DNA of 37,478 nt from Desulfobacterales bacterium (GTDB lineage: Bacteria > Desulfobacterota > Desulfobacteria > Desulfobacterales > JARGFK01). The translations under genes and the position numbers were made by a program. Shown piece after piece: positions 8,635 to 19,821 of the stretch; positions within the stretch are counted from its first letter, which is position 1, and the number at the start of each line of letters is the position of its first letter. The stretch is taken from the NCBI GenBank assembly GCA_029211065.1, contig JARGFK010000040.1:1-37478 (forward strand), in the 5' to 3' direction. The notes under the pieces are model-generated. The model ran no database searches. It saw only the letters and a list, made by a program, of their open reading frames with translations, and was not told the DNA's origin.

Positions 8635-10023
8635 TCAGATATTATCCAGGTCCGGTGTTAAATCAATCCCATACTTTTTCATACGGTTCCAAACCGTTAC
8701 ACGATTCACTCCCAGGATTCGGGCCGCCTGGGACTGATTGCCTTTGCTCCGGCGTAATGCCGTAACCAGAGCTTTTTTTTCAGCTTCGTCTTTTCGACCG
8801 GGCACAACAAACGACCCCGTTTTTTGCCCCGCGCCATTTCTGATCTGAAGGGGCAAATGTTCCGGCTTTACCAACCCCTTGGCAGAGACAACAAAGGCAT
8901 ATTCCAGCGCGCTTTTCAACTCCCTGACATTTCCGGGCCAATGATAGGCCATGAAAAGGCCCATCGCTTCCGCTGACAGTCCGGCAATACTCTTTTCGGT
9001 TCGGGTGTGCAGTTGCTGGATGAAGTGATTCACCAGCAGGGGAATATCTTCTCGTCGATCCCGCAGCGGAGGGATGTGGATCGGAATCACATTGATACGG
9101 AAAAAAAAGTCCTCTCTGAACTTTTTTTGCGCCATCAGTTCACCCAGGTCCTTATTTGTCGCCGTAATGATCCTGACATCCACTGAAATGGGCCGGTGGT
9201 CGCCCACCCGATCAAACTGCTTGGTTTCCAGAACCCGCAGCAGCTTCACCTGAATGGAAAGCGGCACATCGCCGATCTCATCTAAAAAGAAATCCCCGCC
9301 GTCGGCAGCCTCAAAACGCCCGAGACGATGGCGGTAAGCTCCGGTAAAGGCGCCTTTGATGTGGCCGAACAGCTCGCTTTCCAGCAGCGACTCATTTAAT
9401 GCGGTACAATTGAGTTGGACGAAAGGTCCTTTTTTTCTTCTGCCCAGATGATGAATGGCAAGCGCCACCAGTTCCTTGCCTGTACCGCTTTCACCATAAA
9501 TGATAACCGGCGCATCGCTTTGAGCGGCTTTGGGAATCACATCAAACACGTTCTGCATGGCCGCCGATTTGCCGACAAGGCCGTGAAACCCGCTGCCTTC
9601 ATCCATCTGCCGGGTAAGAAGATCGAGTTCCTGGTCCAACCGGTTTAATTCTGATATATCCGTGAGTGTTTCAACCGCCCCCAGATTCGCGTTATCGTCA
9701 TCTTTTAATAACGAAGCGTTTTTTATTATCTGCAGGTAGGTACCGTCCTTTTTCATTACCAGGCAGTTTTTGGTAATATCTTTTCCGCCGGCAAACAGGG
9801 TGCACCAGTGACCATTGCCTGCTTGCAACGTAATTTCACAGCCGTCACAATTGAGCATTTTACAGGACCTTCCCAGCACCTCTTCAGATGAATATCCGGT
9901 CAGGCACTCAAATGAGTGGTTTACCATCAGAATCGTTCCATCCGGGCTGATTACCAGCAAGCCTTCATTCATGGTGTTGATAATTTTTTTCCAGTAGCGG
10001 TTTGATTCAAGATCTTTCATCAT
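8635..10023 (-). CDS. Sigma-54-dependent transcriptional activator, PAS-AAA-Fis
   Basis: An enhancer-binding protein of 462 aa. An N-terminal PAS domain (about 12-125) senses the signal; it is cysteine-rich, with Cys40, 54, 59, 62, 74 and 87, which points to a redox, metal or FeS-type input. The AAA+ domain follows with Walker A GESGTGKE, the sigma-54-contacting GAFTGA loop, Walker B FFLDEIGD and an arginine-finger region. The C-terminal Fis-type HTH is NQSQAARILGVNRVTVWNRM. There is no receiver domain, so no partner kinase is required. AAGGA sits 2 bases before the first ATG and 5 before the second (10020), which may be the true start. It is divergent from the respiratory operon at 10236, with a sigma-54-like promoter and palindromes between, so it is the likely activator of that operon. 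Confidence 0.92.
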   Translation of the reverse strand: MMKDLESNRYWKKIINTMNEGLLVISPDGTILMVNHSFECLTGYSSEEVLGRSCKMLNCDGCEITLQAGNGHWCTLFAGGKDITKNCLVMKKDGTYLQIIKNASLLKDDDNANLGAVETLTDISELNRLDQELDLLTRQMDEGSGFHGLVGKSAAMQNVFDVIPKAAQSDAPVIIYGESGTGKELVALAIHHLGRRKKGPFVQLNCTALNESLLESELFGHIKGAFTGAYRHRLGRFEAADGGDFFLDEIGDVPLSIQVKLLRVLETKQFDRVGDHRPISVDVRIITATNKDLGELMAQKKFREDFFFRINVIPIHIPPLRDRREDIPLLVNHFIQQLHTRTEKSIAGLSAEAMGLFMAYHWPGNVRELKSALEYAFVVSAKGLVKPEHLPLQIRNGAGQKTGSFVVPGRKDEAEKKALVTALRRSKGNQSQAARILGVNRVTVWNRMKKYGIDLTPDLDNI

Positions 10024-10463: not shown

Positions 10464-10550
10464 TGTTGTCGCATGACCCTACCGGTCCCATTTCCACAGA
10501 CGGATTCACGCTCAAAGGCAACCATTATCGTCAACAAACAGGAGTTTTCT

Positions 10551-11495
10551 ATGGAGATGAATAGAAGGCGCTTTCTAAAAATATCCGGGGCGCTGGCTGC
10601 GACACCGCTACTGAATCAGGCTCGCACCGCCCATGCTGAAAAAGTGCCGGCTTTATCCACAGAATCATATGGGTCTCTGGTGGACACAACCCTGTGCGTC
10701 GGCTGCCGCCAGTGCGAACAGGCCTGCAACCAACGCCACGGCTTGGCCAAACCGCATGAATCGTTTAGTGAAATGACGGTTCTGGAAAAAGAAAGGCGGA
10801 TGGATGAAACCACCTATACCGTGGTCAACAAGTATTACCCCAAAACCATCGGTTCCCTGACCTGGCGCACACGGCCCACCTTTGTCAAGTTGCAGTGCAT
10901 GCACTGCAACGACCCCTCCTGTGTCTCCGCCTGTATCGTGGGGGCCTTAACCAAAGAGTCCAACGGCGCGGTGATCTATAACGCCAAAAAATGCATCGGC
11001 TGTCGCTATTGCATGGTCGCCTGTCCCTTCCAGGTCCCGGCCTATGAGTATCACAACCCCCTGACTCCGCAGGTGCGAAAGTGTACATTCTGCTTTGAAA
11101 ACATTAAAGTCGGCGGGCTGCCGGCCTGCGCCCAAACCTGCCCGCGGGAAGTGATCACTTTCGGAAAAAAGGCGGATCTTTTATCTTTGGCCCGCTGGAA
11201 GATGAAGAACAACCCCGGCAAATATGTGGATCACATCTACGGCGAACATGAAGTCGGCGGCACTTCCTGGCTGTATCTGGCGTCCGAACCATTTGAGACC
11301 ATCGGATTTCCCAAGATCGGGACCAAAGCGCCGCCGCGGCTGACCGAGGCCATCCAGCATGGTCTCTTTCAATTCTTTGCAGCCCCGATCATCTTGTTCG
11401 GACTTCTGGGCGGCACGATGTGGTTTACCGGTTTTTACAAGAAAAACAACCGGCCCTCCAAGGATAATCCCCTTGCGAAAGGAGACGTGTCATGA
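10551..11495 (+). CDS. Tat-exported four-cluster ferredoxin subunit with C-terminal anchor (HybA/DsrO-like)
   Basis: The start at 10551 follows AGGAG and gives a twin-arginine signal peptide (NRRRFLKISGALAATPLL, cleavage near AHA). The mature part holds four ferredoxin-type cysteine groups: CVGCRQCEQAC, CMHCNDPSCVSAC, CIGCRYCMVAC and CTFCFENIKVGGLPACAQTC, expected to bind four [4Fe-4S] clusters in the periplasm. A hydrophobic C-terminal segment (LFQFFAAPIILFGLLGG) should anchor it to the membrane, as in HybA. The product (314 aa) would pass electrons between the NrfD/HybB-type membrane protein encoded next (four-base overlap) and periplasmic partners. The longer reading from 10473 would bury the Tat motif and is rejected. 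Confidence 0.9.
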   Translation: MEMNRRRFLKISGALAATPLLNQARTAHAEKVPALSTESYGSLVDTTLCVGCRQCEQACNQRHGLAKPHESFSEMTVLEKERRMDETTYTVVNKYYPKTIGSLTWRTRPTFVKLQCMHCNDPSCVSACIVGALTKESNGAVIYNAKKCIGCRYCMVACPFQVPAYEYHNPLTPQVRKCTFCFENIKVGGLPACAQTCPREVITFGKKADLLSLARWKMKNNPGKYVDHIYGEHEVGGTSWLYLASEPFETIGFPKIGTKAPPRLTEAIQHGLFQFFAAPIILFGLLGGTMWFTGFYKKNNRPSKDNPLAKGDVS

Positions 11496-14400
11496 ATGCT
11501 CATGAAATCGCAGCGCCGGTTGAAGAAAAATTTCTGACCCCCGGTGTCATGGTCATGCTGGGGTTCATCGCCATCGGGCTGGCCTTTACAGCCGCCCGTT
11601 TCATATTCGGCATCGGGGCTGTTTCCAACCTCAACAATCAATACCCCTGGGGAATCTGGATCGGTGTCGATGTCGCTTCCGGCGTCGCCCTGGCCGCCGG
11701 CGGTTTTACCACCGGCCTGATCGCCTATGTCTTTAACCGGGAACAGTACCATGCCGTTATCCGACCGGCCCTGCTGACCGCCATGTTGGGATATACCTTT
11801 GTGGTTCTGGGACTGCTCGTGGATATCGGCCGGTATTGGAACATTACCAGTCCTGTCTTCAACCACAACAGCAGTTCCGTTCTATTTGAAGTCGCCATGT
11901 GCGTCATGATCTATCTGCATGTTCTCTATATTGAATTTATCCCCATCGTGGTGGAACGTTTCAAGGGCCGGGTCAATCTTCCGGGTCCCTTTGCAAAGGC
12001 CAATGGGCCCATTGAAACACTGCTGGAAATTGCCGACCGGATCCTTGACAAGGTCATGTTCCTTTTTATTATTGCCGGTATCGTTCTTTCCTGTCTGCAT
12101 CAATCCGGCCTGGGCTCGCTTATGTTGATAGCGCCCTACAAGGTCCATCCCCTGTGGTACACGCCCATTCTGCCACTGCTGTTCCTGCTGTCCGCCTTTG
12201 CCGCCGGTTACCCCATGGTCACCTTTGAGTCCATCATCGTTGCCAAATCATTCGGCCGAAAACCGGAAATGGAGGTACTCACCCCGCTGGCCAGATTCAT
12301 GCCGCTGTTCATGGGGACCTACCTATCGTTTAAAATCGGAGATATGCTGGTGCGCGGCACCTATATCTATCTGCTGGACGGCACCTATCAGACCAATTCG
12401 TTTCTGGTTGAAGTCCTTGTGGGCGTTGTGCTTCCCTTTGTCTTGCTGATATTCAGAAAGGTCCGACAATCACCGGGCTGGCTGTTTTTCGCATCCATCG
12501 TCTTTGTTCTGGGGATTCTGCTGAACCGCATCAATGTTTTTGTGGTCAGCTTTACCCCGCCGTACAAGCTGGTCTCCTATTTCCCCTCCGTGGGCGAAAT
12601 GTTTATCACAGTGGGATTGATTGCCGGCCTGATGTTTCTGTACCGCGTGTGTGTATTTATTTTTCCGGTCCTGGGCGCCGTTCCCAAGAAAATTTCAACG
12701 GCAGCCCTGATCCTGATGGCCGCATCTATTCTTTTTGCGCCGGCGAACCCAGTCCAGGCGGCCGGCCCCCGCGCGACAGCTAAAACCCCGATAGCACCCA
12801 TAACCGAACCCACGCCGTCTATTGCCGACGCGCCCAAGCTGCAGATCCTCAACAGCCCCATCATCAGCCAATACAGCGATATCTACGAACCGGTCCGGTT
12901 TATGCACAGCAAGCATGCCAATGTTCTCCAGGACTGCTCCATCTGTCACCACCGCATTCCCCGGGAAAAAGGAGATAAATACGGTGAGCCGGTCAACCTG
13001 GCAAAACTGCGCGAAAAGGAAGCTATCCCGACGTCCTGCTCGGTCTGCCATGATCACCCGTTTAATCCCAAACAGCTGCATACCCCCGGCTTGAAAGGCG
13101 CCTATCATCAGCTCTGCATGGACTGCCATCAGGAGTCGGAACAGGTGCCCCATATCCGCGGACCCATTCTATACAGCGCCATGGTCCGGGGGCCGATTGC
13201 GCGAACGCTGGATACCCGAGCCCCCACAGACTGTCTGGCCTGTCACCCCAGGAAGGTTCCCGACCATAAAAACCTGGTAAAGCTGGAAGCGGGCGTCGAC
13301 CCCATCACGGTGACGAAAAACTGCCTCTCCTGTCACGAAAATGAAGGCAAGGCCATCCTCAAGACCGCCCACTGGAACTGGCAGGGACCGTCGCCCTATA
13401 CCGTCGGGCATGAAAAACGGGTTGATCTCGGCAAGCGGCACAACACCGTCAACAATTTCTGTATCAATCTCAACGGCAACTGGCCGCGCTGCACCAGCTG
13501 CCATATCGGCTACGGCTGGGAAGATGAAAAATTTGACTTTAATGATATGACACGAATCGATTGTCTGGTCTGCCACGACACCACCGGAACATACCAGAAG
13601 GCGCCGGCGGCAGCGGGCTTCCCCGCCAAAGGCGTCGACCTGGTCGCAGTTGCCCGCAATGTGGGCCGCCCCAGCCGGGATACCTGCGGTACCAATTGCC
13701 ATTTCCAGGGCGGCGGCGGCGATGCGGTCAAGCATGGCGACCTGAATTCCACCCTGGCCAAGCCCACCCGATCTCTTGACGTTCATATGGGCACGGACAA
13801 AGGCGGTCTGGATTTCAAATGCCAGACCTGTCATAAAACCCGCAACCACATGATCTCCGGGCGCAGCATTTCGGTTGCCGCATCAGAGGGCGACCTGTCC
13901 TGTGAATACTGTCATACCGATAAACCCCATATCGAAAGCCAGATGGTCGATAACCATTTGAATAAGCATACGGCCCACGTTGCCTGCCAGACCTGCCATA
14001 TCCCTATGTATTCCAAGGGAACGCCCACCAAGGTCCACTGGGACTGGTCCACCGCCGGCCAGGATATTGATCAGCCCAAAGACCCCTATGGCAAACCGGT
14101 CTATGCAAAAATGAAGGGAAGCTTCCGCTGGAAGCAGGCAGCCAAGCCTTCCTATTACTGGTACAACGGAACGGTCAAACGCTATCTGCTGGGCGACCGC
14201 ATCAATGAATCCGGTGTTACCGAGCTGACCAAACCCATGGGAAGTGCTGCAGACAGCGCCTCCCGGATATACCCGTTTAAAGAGCACACCGGACGCCAGA
14301 TCAGCGACTCGGTCTATAAATACCTCATCGCACCCAAGCTCTGGAAAGGTTACTGGAAAGACTGGGACTGGGATAAGGCCGCCAGGGAAGGGATGCAGTC

Positions 14401-14752
14401 AGCCAATCTGGCCTATAGCGGCAAATATGAATTTGTGGACACGGTGATGTACTGGGGCCTGACCCACGAGGTGATGCCCAAAGAGCAGGCCCTTTCCTGC
14501 GCCCAGTGCCACCCCTCCCTTGCCAAGGCACCCTACTGCGGCAGCTGCCATCAGGAAAGAAACGGCGTCGACTTTAAGGCCCTGGCAAACAAAGGAATCG
14601 ATTTTAAAACCCTGCCGGTCAAAAGTGCGGAAATTGCCGCCCAGATCGGAAAAAGCAATTACATAGATTTTAAATCTCTGGGGTATCCCGGCGACCCGGT
14701 TGAAACCGGCGGCAGGTTTAAAAAGCTGACCCTGGGAAAAGCGCATCCGTAA
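11492..14752 (+). CDS. NrfD/HybB-type quinone-interacting membrane protein fused to a 13-haem, octahaem-tetrathionate-reductase-like cytochrome c
   Basis: A 1086-aa fusion. Residues about 15-395 are a polytopic NrfD/PsrC/HybB-like membrane domain (N-terminal GIGAVSNLNNQYPWGIWIG and GLLVDIGRYWNI are typical), which exchanges electrons with menaquinone. Residues about 399-424 (KKISTAALILMAAS to NPVQA) look like a complete signal peptide now used as the last membrane segment. Residues 482-1020 are periplasmic and carry twelve CxxCH motifs plus one CGTNCH (Cys732). The first few haems resemble a class III cytochrome module. The rest, with NCHFQGGGGDAVKHGDL, resembles the octahaem tetrathionate reductase (OTR) family. 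It overlaps the ferredoxin gene by four bases. It probably links the quinone pool to the molybdoenzyme and may itself reduce or oxidise a sulfur or nitrogen compound. Confidence 0.9.
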   Translation: MNAHEIAAPVEEKFLTPGVMVMLGFIAIGLAFTAARFIFGIGAVSNLNNQYPWGIWIGVDVASGVALAAGGFTTGLIAYVFNREQYHAVIRPALLTAMLGYTFVVLGLLVDIGRYWNITSPVFNHNSSSVLFEVAMCVMIYLHVLYIEFIPIVVERFKGRVNLPGPFAKANGPIETLLEIADRILDKVMFLFIIAGIVLSCLHQSGLGSLMLIAPYKVHPLWYTPILPLLFLLSAFAAGYPMVTFESIIVAKSFGRKPEMEVLTPLARFMPLFMGTYLSFKIGDMLVRGTYIYLLDGTYQTNSFLVEVLVGVVLPFVLLIFRKVRQSPGWLFFASIVFVLGILLNRINVFVVSFTPPYKLVSYFPSVGEMFITVGLIAGLMFLYRVCVFIFPVLGAVPKKISTAALILMAASILFAPANPVQAAGPRATAKTPIAPITEPTPSIADAPKLQILNSPIISQYSDIYEPVRFMHSKHANVLQDCSICHHRIPREKGDKYGEPVNLAKLREKEAIPTSCSVCHDHPFNPKQLHTPGLKGAYHQLCMDCHQESEQVPHIRGPILYSAMVRGPIARTLDTRAPTDCLACHPRKVPDHKNLVKLEAGVDPITVTKNCLSCHENEGKAILKTAHWNWQGPSPYTVGHEKRVDLGKRHNTVNNFCINLNGNWPRCTSCHIGYGWEDEKFDFNDMTRIDCLVCHDTTGTYQKAPAAAGFPAKGVDLVAVARNVGRPSRDTCGTNCHFQGGGGDAVKHGDLNSTLAKPTRSLDVHMGTDKGGLDFKCQTCHKTRNHMISGRSISVAASEGDLSCEYCHTDKPHIESQMVDNHLNKHTAHVACQTCHIPMYSKGTPTKVHWDWSTAGQDIDQPKDPYGKPVYAKMKGSFRWKQAAKPSYYWYNGTVKRYLLGDRINESGVTELTKPMGSAADSASRIYPFKEHTGRQISDSVYKYLIAPKLWKGYWKDWDWDKAAREGMQSANLAYSGKYEFVDTVMYWGLTHEVMPKEQALSCAQCHPSLAKAPYCGSCHQERNGVDFKALANKGIDFKTLPVKSAEIAAQIGKSNYIDFKSLGYPGDPVETGGRFKKLTLGKAHP

Positions 14753-14852: not shown

Positions 14853-15182
14853 ATGATTCGACGATTGGGTTCCGCTTTAATTCTTTTGGTCTTTTTAATC
14901 GGCGCGGTCGGGCTTGCCCTGGCCGCCGGCGACGGCAATGCCCGCAAGGGAAAATACCTTTTTCGTAAAAACTGCCGGACCTGCCACATCGACGGCGGAT
15001 CCGCCAAGCCCCTCAGTCCCATCGACAAGACCCAGGCAAAGTGGGACGAGGTATTTAAAAACATTGAAAAGCTGCCCTGCAAGGACAAGTGGAGCGCCCT
15101 GTCGGAAAAGGATATTCAGGATATGTATGCGCAGCTCTGGGGTCATGCCTTTGACTCTCCCTCACCGGAAAAATGCGAGTAA
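14853..15182 (+). CDS. Monohaem cytochrome c, periplasmic
   Basis: A 109-aa protein with an N-terminal signal peptide (LILLVFLIGAVGLALA) and one haem-binding motif, CRTCH, placed early in the mature chain (KGKYLFRKNCRTCHIDGG), as in class I cytochromes. The distal ligand cannot be assigned with certainty; no Met follows in the usual place apart from DMYAQLW near the C-terminus. Two further cysteines (LPCKD and the C-terminal KCE) could form a disulfide. A strong ribosome-binding site, AAGGAGG, precedes the ATG. It lies between the octahaem fusion and the molybdoenzyme and is the natural soluble electron shuttle between them. Confidence 0.88.
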   Translation: MIRRLGSALILLVFLIGAVGLALAAGDGNARKGKYLFRKNCRTCHIDGGSAKPLSPIDKTQAKWDEVFKNIEKLPCKDKWSALSEKDIQDMYAQLWGHAFDSPSPEKCE

Positions 15183-15197
15183 TTTGGAGTATTGAAA

Positions 15198-17396
15198 ATG
15201 CCAGTAAAAACCAAAGGTGCGCTAACCCGTCGCAGGTTCATGCAGCTTACCGGCGCGGCTGCTGCCGGGGCGGCTGTCGGCGGCCAATCCCGGATCTTGC
15301 ATGCGCTGGTATCCAAAACAGCAGGAGATTCCAAAGCGCGCATTGAAAGGAAATTCTCCATCTGCGACATGTGCTTAAACAAGTGCGGTCTGATTGCCCG
15401 GGTGGACCCATACGGTGTGGTCAAAAAACTGGACCCCAATCCGAAGTTCTTAAAATCCCGGGGCATGCTGTGTGCCCGGGGCAATGCCGGCATCCAGCAG
15501 CTCTATGACCCCGACCGGCTGAAATATCCCCTCCTCAGAAAAGGAGAAAGGGGCCAGGGCCGTTGGCAGCGACTCACATGGGACCAGGCCCTGGACCATG
15601 CCGCTGAACAGCTGGGGCGCATCGCCGAAAAGTACACCCGCTGCGGCGTTCTGTTTATGGCCGGATCCGACCTTCAATCCACATTTGTCCACCGCTTTGC
15701 CAATGTCTTTGGATCGTACAATGTCGTATCGCATGAATCCAACTGCCTCTTGAGCCTCAACCGGGCATTTCTGGACACATATGGCGAAATCCCGATTCCC
15801 GACATGCTCAACTGCAAATATGTCATCATGGCCGGCGCCAACCGCTTCGAGGCTTTGGTTACACCGGACAGCATCGATCTGATGACGGCCATGCAGAACG
15901 GCTGCAAGCTGGTGGTCCTTGATCCCCGCTTTACCAAAACAGCGGCCCTGGCGAGCGAATGGTTCCCGATCCGGCCGGGGACCGACATGGCCTTTTTCCT
16001 GGCCATTGCACATGTATTGATCACTGAAAAACTGTACGATCCCAAGTTCATTGCCGAAAAAACATTCGGTATCGAACAGCTCAGCGCCCATGTCAAACCC
16101 TACCCGCCGGAATGGGCTGAAAAAGAATGCGAAATCCCGGCCGGCGATATTCGCCGCATGGCACGGGACCTGGCTGCAGCCGCGCCTGCGGCCATGGTCT
16201 ATCCGGGACGCAGAAGCTCCGACTACGAAAACTCCACTCAGATCCGCCGATCCTTTGCCATTGTCAATGCGCTCCTGGGAAACTGGGATCGCCCCGGCGG
16301 CCTGACGGCGGCCAGAAAAATCGGCATCAAATCCGTGCCCTATGATCCGCCCTTTTATGAGGACAACCCCGAAAAAAGGATCGATGCCGACCGGTCCGTG
16401 ATGATGTTCGAGGAGGAGGGCTCTTTTAAGCACGCCCGGGATGCCGTCATTGAAGGAAAGCCTTATCCGGTCAAAGGTTTTTTCACCTATAAGATCAACC
16501 CCATGCAAACCGGCGCCAACCGCAGCAAAACCATCGAAATGATCCACACGCTCGATTTCATGATGACCGTGGATATCGCCATGAGCGACACCGCCTGGAT
16601 GGCGGATCTGGTCTTGCCGGCCCCCAGCTATCTCGAAAGAGAGGACCCGGTGTCTGCGCTGCAGGGTTCTTCGGCCTGCGCCTGTATGGTCATGCGCGAT
16701 CCGGTGGTTCCGGCGCTGTTTGAATCCAGACCGGTTTTCTGGATTGTCACCGAGCTTTCCAAGCGCCTGGGCTTGGGTGAGCACTTCAACTACACCCTGG
16801 CGGACTACCGCAAAAAACAGCTGGAAGAGCTGCCCGATGCCATGGATGCCCTGCTGAAAGACGGCGTTTATTACAATCCCGGCAAGCTCTATGGCGTCTA
16901 TGAAGGCAAGGTTTTTAAAACCCTTTCAAAAAAAATTGAAATTTACAACCAGCGTTATGCTGACGCCGGCATCGATCCACTGCCGGTATACCAACCCCCC
17001 CAGCAGGTTCCTGAAGGAAAGTTTCGCATCGTGGTGGGACGCAACGCTTATATCACCCAGGGCTCTTCCACCAATAATGAACTGCTGCACGAACTGCTGC
17101 CTGAAAACGCCCTGTGGATACACCCCAAACCGGCCGGCCGGCTGGGAATCAAGCAGGGCGATTCCGTCGCGGTTACCAGCCCGGTAGGCAAAGGCATCCT
17201 CAAGGCTCATGTCACCCAGGAAACCCGCCCCGATACGGTTTATATGGATTCCGGGTACGGCGCCCTGTCAAAGGGCCTGACCCATGTTTTCGGCCGGGGA
17301 GCTTGCATTGCAGACATCCTTGAAGACTATAACGATAAGATTTCAGGGAATATGGCCATGCATCAAACCATGGTCACGGTCAGAAAGATAAAATAG
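15198..17396 (+). CDS. Molybdopterin oxidoreductase catalytic subunit, PsrA/PhsA-like
   Basis: A 732-aa bis-MGD enzyme exported by Tat (TRRRFMQLTGAAAAGAAVGG). CDMCLNKC plus the later MLCARGN gives the four cysteines of the N-terminal [4Fe-4S] cluster. SHESNCLLS places a Cys at the Mo-ligand position, as in polysulfide/thiosulfate reductase (PsrA/PhsA) and not Ser (DMSO reductase) or Asp (NarG). The C-terminal domain shows the MGD-binding pattern, with GRNAYITQGSSTNNELL. The start at 15198 (ATG) follows GGAG with eight bases between; the TTG at 15192 is rejected. Likely substrates are polysulfide, thiosulfate or tetrathionate, but related enzymes also handle arsenate or arsenite, so the substrate is open. 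The chaperone is probably the TorD-like protein at 19804. Confidence 0.9.
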   Translation: MPVKTKGALTRRRFMQLTGAAAAGAAVGGQSRILHALVSKTAGDSKARIERKFSICDMCLNKCGLIARVDPYGVVKKLDPNPKFLKSRGMLCARGNAGIQQLYDPDRLKYPLLRKGERGQGRWQRLTWDQALDHAAEQLGRIAEKYTRCGVLFMAGSDLQSTFVHRFANVFGSYNVVSHESNCLLSLNRAFLDTYGEIPIPDMLNCKYVIMAGANRFEALVTPDSIDLMTAMQNGCKLVVLDPRFTKTAALASEWFPIRPGTDMAFFLAIAHVLITEKLYDPKFIAEKTFGIEQLSAHVKPYPPEWAEKECEIPAGDIRRMARDLAAAAPAAMVYPGRRSSDYENSTQIRRSFAIVNALLGNWDRPGGLTAARKIGIKSVPYDPPFYEDNPEKRIDADRSVMMFEEEGSFKHARDAVIEGKPYPVKGFFTYKINPMQTGANRSKTIEMIHTLDFMMTVDIAMSDTAWMADLVLPAPSYLEREDPVSALQGSSACACMVMRDPVVPALFESRPVFWIVTELSKRLGLGEHFNYTLADYRKKQLEELPDAMDALLKDGVYYNPGKLYGVYEGKVFKTLSKKIEIYNQRYADAGIDPLPVYQPPQQVPEGKFRIVVGRNAYITQGSSTNNELLHELLPENALWIHPKPAGRLGIKQGDSVAVTSPVGKGILKAHVTQETRPDTVYMDSGYGALSKGLTHVFGRGACIADILEDYNDKISGNMAMHQTMVTVRKIK

Positions 17397-17409
17397 AAGG
17401 AAGTTGCCC

Positions 17410-18045
17410 ATGAGCCAGGACCGATCGAAACGATATGCCATTGTGATTGACACCTTTAAATGTTTTGACTGCAAGGCCTGCATGATTGCCTGCAAGGTTG
17501 AAAACAACGTTCCCAAAGGTTTCTGGCGAAACTGGGTCCGGCATACCGGCGGAATCGGCGGCCGCAGAACCCAGTACCAGCCCGGCCAGTGCATGCAGTG
17601 CGACAAACCGTCCTGTGTATCGGCCTGCCCGGTGAACGCCACTTACAAGCAGTCTAACGGCATCGTGGCCATCGATCCGACCAAATGCATCGGCTGCGGC
17701 AATTGCGTCACAGCCTGCCCCTACGGCGCCCGCTATCGCAACCCTGCCAGCCGCTTCGCCGATAAATGTGATTTTTGTCAGCACCGCTTAAGCCGTGGAG
17801 AAGAACCGGCCTGCGTCGAGACCTGTCCCACCCGGGCCCGCACTTTCGGAGATCTGAATGATCCCACAAGCACAATCAGCGAACTGGTCAAGCATAAAAA
17901 ACTGGTACAGGTGATCAACCCCAAAATAGATACCCAACCGGGAATCTTATATTTTTCAGGGACGCTGCCCCTGGACTGGCCGGTGGAACCGACCCTGCCT
18001 GGCGGTATCCATATGCCGGAAAAATTCTGGAAAACGTCGGAATGA
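17410..18045 (+). CDS. [4Fe-4S] electron-transfer subunit, PsrB/DmsB-like
   Basis: A 211-aa protein with four ferredoxin cysteine groups (CFDCKACMIAC, CMQCDKPSCVSAC, CIGCGNCVTAC and CDFCQHRLSRGEEPACVETC), the standard arrangement in PsrB, DmsB and NrfC. It has no signal peptide, so it should be exported by riding on the Tat signal of the molybdoenzyme encoded 13 bases upstream. The start at 17410 (ATGAGC) follows AAGGAAG; the TTG at 17404 is less likely. The C-terminus (LDWPVEPTLPGGIHMPEKFW) is typical of this subunit. It receives or donates electrons at the molybdoenzyme and should contact the NrfD domain or the cytochromes. Confidence 0.92.
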   Translation: MSQDRSKRYAIVIDTFKCFDCKACMIACKVENNVPKGFWRNWVRHTGGIGGRRTQYQPGQCMQCDKPSCVSACPVNATYKQSNGIVAIDPTKCIGCGNCVTACPYGARYRNPASRFADKCDFCQHRLSRGEEPACVETCPTRARTFGDLNDPTSTISELVKHKKLVQVINPKIDTQPGILYFSGTLPLDWPVEPTLPGGIHMPEKFWKTSE

Positions 18046-18129: not shown

Positions 18130-19272
18130 ATGATGAGTAACAGCAGAATGAACTGGCTTCCCCTGCTCATAGTGATCGTCTTGGCTATGGGACTTGGGAA
18201 CGCCGCCATTGCCGCTGCTTCCGCGGAAGCCGGCAGTGTACAGACCGAAGCATGGATGTTCCATGACATTGTGACGGTTGAATTTGTGCAGCCGTATGTG
18301 AAAGTGCCCCCGCCTGAAAACGCCCTGCTCATTGATTCCAGGCCGAAACGGGCAAAATATGACAAGGGACACATCCCCATGGCAATCAATATTCCCGACA
18401 GTCAGTTTGAAAAAATGACCGACAAGCTGCCCCAGGATAAAGACACCCTTTTGATTTTCTATTGTGAAGGGATGAAGTGAAAGCTGAGCCACAACTCAGC
18501 CTGGAAGGCTGAAAAGCTCGGATACAAAAACGTCAAAGTCTTTGCCGAAGGATTCCCCAAATGGGAGAAAGTTCAAGGCAACTATCCGGCGATATCTACG
18601 GATTACATGAAAAAACTGATCGACACCAAGGCCGATATGGTCTTGGTGGACTCACGACCCAAACGTTCAATGTACGACAAGGGCCATATTCCCACTGCCA
18701 TCAGCATCCCTGACAGCGAGTTCGACAAGTTAAAAGACCAGCTGCCTCAGGACAAGGAAAAACAGCTGATTTTTTACTGTGAAGGGTTTAAATGCAAATT
18801 GAGCCATAATTCCGCCGCCAAGGCCATTGGGCTCGGCTACAAGAACGTAGCCGTCTATGCGGCCGGTTACCCTGCCTGGAAAACGCTTGATGCCGATTCT
18901 GCTGAAGAAGCAAAAAAAATGGCCGCTTCGATCAAACCCGGCAAGGAGGAAGGGAGTATCGATGTGGCCGTGTTTGAAACTATCATCGAAGAAAAACCGG
19001 AAAGCATCATTCTGATCGATGTCCGCGACCCGGATGAGTTTAAAGCCGGCAGTTTCGAGACCGCCATTAACGTCCCCACCGACAAACTGGAAGAAAAGAT
19101 CAAAACCCTGTCGGAAGAAAAGCCGGTCGTCTTCATCTGTTCAACCGGCGCCAGAAGCGGCGAGGCCTATTATATGGTCAAAGACCTGCGTCCGAAATTC
19201 AAGGATGTATATTATCTGGAAGCAGAGTTGACTTTCAACAAAGACGGCTCACATAAAATAACCAAAAAATAA
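18130..19272 (+). CDS. Exported three-domain rhodanese with in-frame TGA read as selenocysteine (Sec117)
   Basis: Read through the TGA at 18478-18480 this gene encodes 380 aa: a signal peptide (about 1-30), two closely related rhodanese domains and a third, more divergent one. Domain 1 reads YCEGMK-TGA-KLSHNSA; domain 2 reads YCEGFKCKLSHNSA, so the TGA aligns exactly with Cys222. The sequence after the TGA stays homologous to domain 2 (LGYKNVKVFAEGFPKWE against LGYKNVAVYAAGYPAWK), which rules out a normal stop. Active-site cysteines are Cys112, Cys217 and Cys337 (FICSTGARSG). The SD is AGGAGG. The TGA is followed at 18486-18519 by a SECIS-like hairpin. Rhodaneses move sulfane sulfur; this one should work in the periplasm with the molybdoenzyme system. 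If the TGA were a stop, only a 116-aa truncated first domain would be made. Confidence 0.85.
18478..18480 (+). other. Putative selenocysteine codon (TGA) in rhodanese domain 1
   Basis: This in-frame TGA follows GGG-ATG-AAG and precedes AAG-CTG-AGC. In the second domain of the same protein the matching codon is TGC (18793-18795). The neighbouring rhodanese gene has TGA at the same alignment position. Recoding as Sec is inferred from these alignments and the following hairpin. Confidence 0.82.
18486..18519 (+). promoter_or_regulatory. Bacterial SECIS-like hairpin downstream of the TGA at 18478
   Basis: The upper stem TCAGCC (18496-18501) pairs fully with GGCTGA (18507-18512) around the loop TGGAA, whose second base is G, as bacterial SECIS elements require. 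A lower stem GAGC (18486-18489) with GCTC (18516-18519) adds four pairs. The loop begins 21 bases after the TGA, within the usual window. A competing hairpin, GCTGAG (18483-18488) with CTCAGC (18495-18500), is also possible. Confidence 0.6.
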
Positions 19273-19347: not shown

Positions 19348-19821
19348 ATGAAACTTTTGCAGACTCTGAAAGGCTTTTTTGTCCTGATCATCCTTTGCGG
19401 ATATGTTCCCGGCGCCGGGGCCGCTGAAAATTCCGTATGGTGGGAAAGGGCCGAAATTGTCGCCCGGCAGGAAGGCTATCATCTCGTTACGCTACAACAG
19501 CTCCAGGCGCTCTATGGCACACAACAAAATTTCCTGATTGTCGATGTCCGGCCGGACTACGAATTTAAGGAAGGCCATCTACCCCGGGCCATCCAGATCG
19601 AATTCAGTCCCGCTGACCGGTACAATCTGAAACCCGACAAGCGAGACCGTTTTGAAAGCGTCCTCGGTTCGGATAAAAACCGCAGGATTATTATTTACTG
19701 CCTGAACTACAACTGAGCCCGGAGCGAAATTGCCGTCTACTGGGCCGTGCGCCTGGGTTATAAAGATGTCAGCAGGTTTGTCGCCGGTTACCAGGGGTGG
19801 ATCTCAGTTCCGCTCCCATAG
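19348..19821 (+). CDS. Exported single-domain rhodanese with in-frame TGA read as selenocysteine (Sec123)
   Basis: Read through the TGA at 19714-19716 the product has 157 aa and ends at TAG 19819-19821. It has a signal peptide (LKGFFVLIILCGYVPGAGA) and one rhodanese domain: LIVDVRPDYEFKEGHLPRA, then IIYCLNYN-TGA-ARSEIAVYWA and LGYKDVSRFVAGYQGW, the typical C-terminal end of the fold. Active-site Cys118 and Sec123 are five residues apart, the same spacing as Cys112/Sec117 and Cys217/Cys222 in the upstream protein. Stopping at the TGA would delete the last helix and strand that every rhodanese needs. A hairpin with GT in its loop follows at 19740-19756. The final 18 bases overlap the end of the convergent torD-like gene. 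No strong ribosome-binding site is seen. Confidence 0.8.
19714..19716 (+). other. Putative selenocysteine codon (TGA) in the single-domain rhodanese
   Basis: The in-frame TGA follows AAC-TAC-AAC and precedes GCC-CGG-AGC. It stands at the Cys+5 position that is Cys or TGA in the neighbouring rhodanese domains. The frame continues with rhodanese sequence for 34 more codons before TAG. Confidence 0.78.
19740..19756 (+). promoter_or_regulatory. Bacterial SECIS-like hairpin downstream of the TGA at 19714
   Basis: CTGGGC (19740-19745) pairs with GCCTGG (19751-19756) through four Watson-Crick and two G-T pairs around the loop CGTGC, which has G at position two followed by T as in well-studied bacterial SECIS loops. 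The loop begins 29 bases after the TGA, inside the usual range. The stem is weaker than that of the upstream gene. Confidence 0.42.

Follow-up and report, generated by a model that had tools for sequence, protein, structure and literature searches.

The window analysed here is a stretch of 37,478 nucleotides from a Desulfobacterales bacterium (GenBank assembly GCA_029211065.1, contig JARGFK010000040.1). It carries a gene cluster that includes one long open reading frame (ORF), in which an NrfD/HybB/HmcC-type membrane domain is followed by a 13-haem cytochrome related to octahaem tetrathionate reductase (OTR). The features of the cluster, in window coordinates, are these:

8635–10023, minus strand: divergent PAS-sigma54 activator, conserved beside the operon in fused loci
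10473–11495, plus strand: HmcB/HybA-like 4Fe-4S (FeS) subunit with a Tat signal and a C-terminal hydrophobic helix
11492–14752, plus strand: fused ORF of 1086 amino acids, with membrane domain, putative internal signal peptide and 13-haem OTR-like cytochrome
11492–12685, plus strand: NrfD/HybB/HmcC-type membrane domain (residues 1–398)
12683–12760, plus strand: joint PKKISTAALILMAASILFAPANPVQA (residues 398–423), a predicted internal Sec-type signal peptide, called from the sequence and from the n-h-c pattern in relatives
12893–13291, plus strand: tetrahaem c7/c3-like module (residues 468–600)
13301–14515, plus strand: OTR module (residues 604–1008), from the TIGR04315 and 1sp3 matches
13460–13732, plus strand: equivalents of the OTR active-site residues, placed by alignment
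13685–13702, plus strand: CX3CH haem motif CGTNCH
14537–14551, plus strand: thirteenth haem motif, CGSCH (residues 1016–1020), outside the OTR module
14853–15182, plus strand: monohaem c-type cytochrome, its position conserved in many fused loci
15192–17396, plus strand: PsrA/PhsA-like molybdopterin oxidoreductase with a Tat signal (2vpw_A, 9e-122), adjoining most fused loci
17404–18045, plus strand: PsrB/TtrB-like 4Fe-4S subunit, from family scans
18130–19272, plus strand: tandem rhodanese, probable selenoprotein, with the TGA at 18478–18480 read as selenocysteine
19348–19821, plus strand: rhodanese, probable selenoprotein, with the TGA at 19714–19716 read as selenocysteine

The fused ORF runs through 1086 uninterrupted codons, without a stop or frameshift. 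PF03916 (NrfD) matches residues 44–351 at 83.7 bits, against a Pfam gathering score of 25.8, and the HybB model NF008133 matches residues 7–395 in the NCBIfam scan; the Pfam/NCBIfam scan places Cytochrome_C7 at residues 468–547 and Cytochrome_cB at residues 847–1008. The tetrahaem module is akin to the C-terminal part of HmcA and to nine-haem cytochromes. Over residues 604–1008 TIGR04315 scores 530 bits, above the curated cut-off of 375 that defines the OTR family, and the OTR crystal chain 1sp3 aligns by sequence to residues 605–1009 (E 1e-136) and matches the module by structure (Z 22.1). By score, the fusion belongs to the OTR and NrfD families and falls below the NCBIfam equivalog cut-offs for HybB (360 against 450), HmcC (281 against 550) and QrcD (118 against 570). 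The initial annotation had read this ORF as a single chain joining an NrfD/HybB membrane domain, an N-terminal class III-like haem module and an OTR-like module with the signature GGGGDAVKHGDL. That signature is present, the class III-like module corresponds to the tetrahaem module, and the open ORF and family scans bear out the rest of the description. We have very high confidence in the domain assignments, in the fusion and in its spread.

Haem motifs are present at thirteen sites: four in the tetrahaem module (residues 482, 516, 542 and 581), eight in the OTR module (611, 667, 691, 732, 777, 804, 832 and 1003) and one beyond it (1016). Twelve are of the CXXCH form and one, at residue 732, is CX3CH, so that the earlier count of 13 haems holds provided that the CX3CH site is used. 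Most fused relatives also have CX3CH there, 1sp3 has CGSCH, and an ordinary motif is found instead in loci L041, L046, L050, L051 and L111. Alignment with 1sp3 equates C657 with Cys64, D744 with Asp150 and K747 with Lys153. Among the fused relatives the equivalents of Cys64, Asp150 and Lys153 are kept in 30/31, 26/31 and 31/31 sequences, respectively, and the retention of the cysteine and the lysine argues that the octahaem part may still be catalytic. The fused sequence of L111 has lost the Cys64 equivalent, with NNTT in place of NNFC.

Because the source assembly consists of 269 contigs and unfused pairs are common among relatives, we considered whether the fusion might be an assembly join or a frameshift artefact. 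The same fusion is open, with conserved flanking residues, in about 29 other genomes that were assembled independently (some on contigs that end early), which refutes this explanation and leaves it a negligible probability. A set of 58 related genomes, each representing one family of the order, contains five further carriers, and a scan of the genome collection together with a survey of 395 genomes across the phylum raises the count to this total. The carriers include Desulfobacterales, Desulfarculaceae such as Desulfocarbo indianensis SCBM (L040), one SAR324 bin and, more distantly related, a bin of Myxococcales. Searching for the same domain pair therefore confirmed that the fusion is real, and showed that it is not a one-off.

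A tree of the OTR part places 28 of the 29 fused rows in one supported clade, to which unfused pairs are sister. The sole unfused row inside that clade (L049) is a fused gene that a contig end has split: the NrfD half (L053) is found on a second contig of that assembly. Together with the independent genomes, this topology shows that the fusion is old and has been kept. L051, from the Myxococcales bin, pairs with L023 on long branches, so that the case for a second origin is insecure. Two loci (L112 and L113) have a short fusion, a 623-residue open frame of NrfD plus tetrahaem module without OTR, in an unchanged operon; the octahaem part is either dispensable or a later gain. Separate NrfD-type and OTR polypeptides are the usual form, as the initial annotation had supposed: unfused pairs occur in relatives, and the source genome itself has an unfused paralogous pair on contig C42, behind its own FeS gene. 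Our literature searches, which covered open-licence papers, found no account of an NrfD-OTR fusion. An OTR adjoining a membrane subunit, as separate genes, was noted earlier in Thermosulfurimonas dismutans (PMC4911364).

The surroundings of the fusion are also conserved. The end of the FeS gene overlaps the start of the fusion by four bases (ATGA), which couples their translation, and an HmcB/HybA-like gene lies upstream in nearly all loci with flanking sequence. The monohaem cytochrome, the PsrA-like and PsrB-like proteins, the rhodaneses and the sigma54 activator recur at most fused loci that have enough flank; L039, L042 and L043 have no PsrA-like gene next door. At L111 a TtrB-like gene lies downstream, with no PsrA-like match in the flank examined. 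A search for the sigma54 -24/-12 consensus found no excess above chance. The recurrent Psr-like, monohaem and rhodanese neighbours point to a role for the operon in the respiration of a sulfur compound, which could be polysulfide, thiosulfate or tetrathionate.

Both rhodanese genes at the end of the cluster are related to TsoB and contain an in-frame TGA. In the tandem rhodanese this codon falls in the active-site loop (CEGMK[U]KLS, where the second repeat reads CEGFKCKLS) and is followed by a hairpin with a z-score of -3.3; in the other, the context is YCLNYN[U]ARSE and the hairpin past the TGA has a z-score of -2.3. SelB scores over its cut-off in the source genome and, with the first of these hairpins, makes the tandem rhodanese a probable selenoprotein. 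The unfused OTR genes of L016–L023 have one in-frame TGA at the OTR Cys64 position, right before ISPISNEARCTSCH or MANTSNWCRCTSCH, which is probably an active-site selenocysteine. In the phylum survey, many other OTR matches are reported with one TGA, counted irrespective of its position. An OTR-family selenoprotein is given as annotated in GenBank in a 2026 review.

Topology and structure prediction, which the initial annotation had proposed as checks, agree with the domain description, giving about 10 transmembrane helices in the membrane domain and folds resembling ActC for that domain and 1sp3 for the OTR module. Structure comparison matches the membrane domain best to ActC of alternative complex III (Z about 31); by sequence, a profile of the NrfD half hit no solved structure. 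We also compared the domain with QrcD, which transfers periplasmic electrons to menaquinone and for which a proton channel has been proposed that comprises D70, Y88, N100, Y110, Y150, E157, E164, H199 and E413 (Duarte et al. 2018, PMC6303296). Mapped through the QrcD of the source genome, seven of these nine residues are aligned and identical in the membrane domain (D60, Y79, Y101, Y141, E148, E155 and H203), and N100 and E413 are unmatched.

The joint between the two halves has the layout of a signal peptide, with a positively charged n-region (PKK), an 11-residue hydrophobic core and a small-x-small site; cleavage by signal peptidase I is predicted after A423 (V-Q-A) or A418 (A-P-A). Of 32 distinct fused sequences, nearly all keep this n-h-c pattern, and a few joints (L046, L052 and L111) have weak cleavage sites in the scored window. 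Behind the core, [AVSG]xA is observed in 26 of the 32, compared with 18.5 +/- 2.4 when the residues behind the core are shuffled (p 0.001, with related sequences treated as independent). As a control the same statistic was applied to NrfD helices, but their conservation made it uninformative. Residues 401–440 are the least conserved stretch of the fusion, at 36–39% mean column identity compared with about 60–97% elsewhere. Unfused NrfD proteins end about 10–15 residues past their last helix, and the number of helices places the C-terminus of NrfD in the cytoplasm, the orientation that an internal signal peptide needs. In unfused relatives NrfD and the cytochrome have a gene each, and many of these cytochromes bear a signal peptide of their own at the N-terminus; in L112 and L113, where the fused partner stops after the tetrahaem module, the joint is unaltered. 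The signal-peptide pattern expected of a cleaved polyprotein is found, with moderate statistical support, and we have fairly high confidence in the prediction that the joint is an internal Sec signal peptide.

Two products could also arise if translation restarted at the joint. Many relatives have a methionine there (PKKM) that may descend from the initiation codon of the ancestral cytochrome gene, but the codon at this position is ATT in the window and CTT, CTC, ATC or ATA in other relatives, no clear Shine-Dalgarno sequence lies upstream of the putative start, and initiation at the methionine would lose the conserved KK of the n-region. With neither a conserved start codon nor a Shine-Dalgarno sequence, we ruled out an internal start, to which we assign a very low probability.

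A more serious possibility, though still an unlikely one in our judgement, is that the chain stays whole. The joint would then be an eleventh transmembrane helix, by which the 13-haem cytochrome is kept tethered, on the periplasmic side, to the quinone module. Over the best 19 residues of the joint, hydropathy has a median of 1.86, inside the range of the NrfD helices (1.49–2.53). A tethered cytochrome also seems workable in this family, since the unfused C42 paralogue starts with an anchor-like, apparently uncleaved segment without an A-x-A site, and the retention of a single ancient fusion in about 29 lineages could mean that tethering is beneficial. Against this, nearly all sequences have a small-x-small site behind the core even though the segment is poorly conserved, and the helix predicted at the joint by AlphaFold is just 12 residues long (403–414) and of low confidence. 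The full-length AlphaFold model (mean pLDDT 55) can be used only in the membrane domain, as the cytochrome half is of poor quality. The signal-peptide pattern and the analogy with the FbcH precursor discussed below lead us to favour cleavage over a permanent eleventh helix, and we think that signal peptidase probably cuts the protein in the cell. The proposal in the initial annotation of a long haem wire within one molecule would then give way to two chains.

We therefore favour, with somewhat better than even confidence, the reading that two operon neighbours were fused long ago and have been kept as a precursor polyprotein, which is cut into a quinone subunit and a periplasmic 13-haem cytochrome. 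Residues 1–398 would insert as a 10-helix subunit of the NrfD/HmcC/QrcD type with both ends in the cytoplasm, and the next 25 or so residues would work as a standard Sec signal peptide and initiate cytochrome export. Cleavage by signal peptidase I past the A/V-x-A site would free a periplasmic protein composed of the tetrahaem module, the OTR-like octahaem catalytic module and one more haem. With the HmcB-like FeS protein, both products would make up a quinone module, facing the periplasm, and a haem relay that operate alongside the PsrAB-like molybdoenzyme and the monohaem cytochrome. The process served, judged from the neighbours only, would be respiration of tetrathionate, polysulfide or thiosulfate. 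Electrons might flow either way, from quinol, the source named in the initial annotation, through the haems to the sulfur compound or from the periplasm to quinone; retention of seven of the proposed channel residues of QrcD, a quinone reductase, suggests that the second direction may apply, and a QrcD-like proton path would let quinol oxidation proceed against the proton-motive force. Cleavage, complex formation, substrate and electron direction are thus what we infer. More tentatively, and with less than even confidence, we suggest an undescribed respiratory complex, present in Desulfobacterota of the sulfur cycle and in a few further lineages, whose quinone subunit and 13-haem OTR-like cytochrome come from one precursor that is split by signal peptidase in a fixed 1:1 ratio, and which acts jointly with PsrAB and selenoprotein rhodaneses.

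To our knowledge, neither the physiological role of OTR nor its electron partner has been settled. The fusion links it to a quinone module of the QrcD/HmcC type, and the operon connects the two with rhodaneses and a molybdoenzyme of the Psr type, offering a specific and testable assignment for OTR. Like the OTR of Shewanella (1sp3), the fused protein has eight haem motifs in this module, equivalents of Cys64, Asp150 and Lys153 and the GGGGDAVKHGD motif; the Shewanella protein is separate and soluble with eight haems, whereas the fused ORF has five additional haem motifs, CX3CH for CGSCH and a membrane domain in frame. The unfused Desulfobacterota pairs (C42, L013, L014, L114–L120 and others) share the two proteins, their order, the FeS gene and 13 motifs, but have separate ORFs, several with TGA at the Cys64 codon (probable selenocysteine). 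In common with QrcCD, HmcBC and HybAB, a 10-helix NrfD-family subunit adjoins a HybA/HmcB-like FeS protein, but here the partner cytochrome is OTR-like and shares one ORF with the membrane subunit. Alternative complex III (ActA–F) likewise combines multihaem c, monohaem c, FeS, NrfD and molybdoenzyme-like subunits; its ActA is a separate cytochrome of 5–6 haems, it has no OTR module, and its molybdoenzyme-like and FeS parts are fused in ActB. The Ohc complex consists of octahaem OhcA, FeS protein OhcB and haem-b protein OhcC. A divergent sigma54 regulator is common to that complex and the fused locus, but membership is ruled out because the membrane part is of the NrfD type rather than a haem-b protein. 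The nearest analogy for the joint is FbcH of Bradyrhizobium japonicum, the precursor of cytochromes b and c1, which has an internal signal peptide and for which cleavage has been shown. Each precursor combines a membrane quinone subunit with an exported c-type cytochrome; the proteins are unrelated, FbcH belonging to the bc1 complex, and cleavage of the NrfD-OTR fusion is a prediction. If uncleaved, the fusion would hold a quinone site and a 13-haem chain within a single molecule; if cleaved, it would be a second kind of quinone-subunit/cytochrome polyprotein, besides that of cytochrome b/c1.
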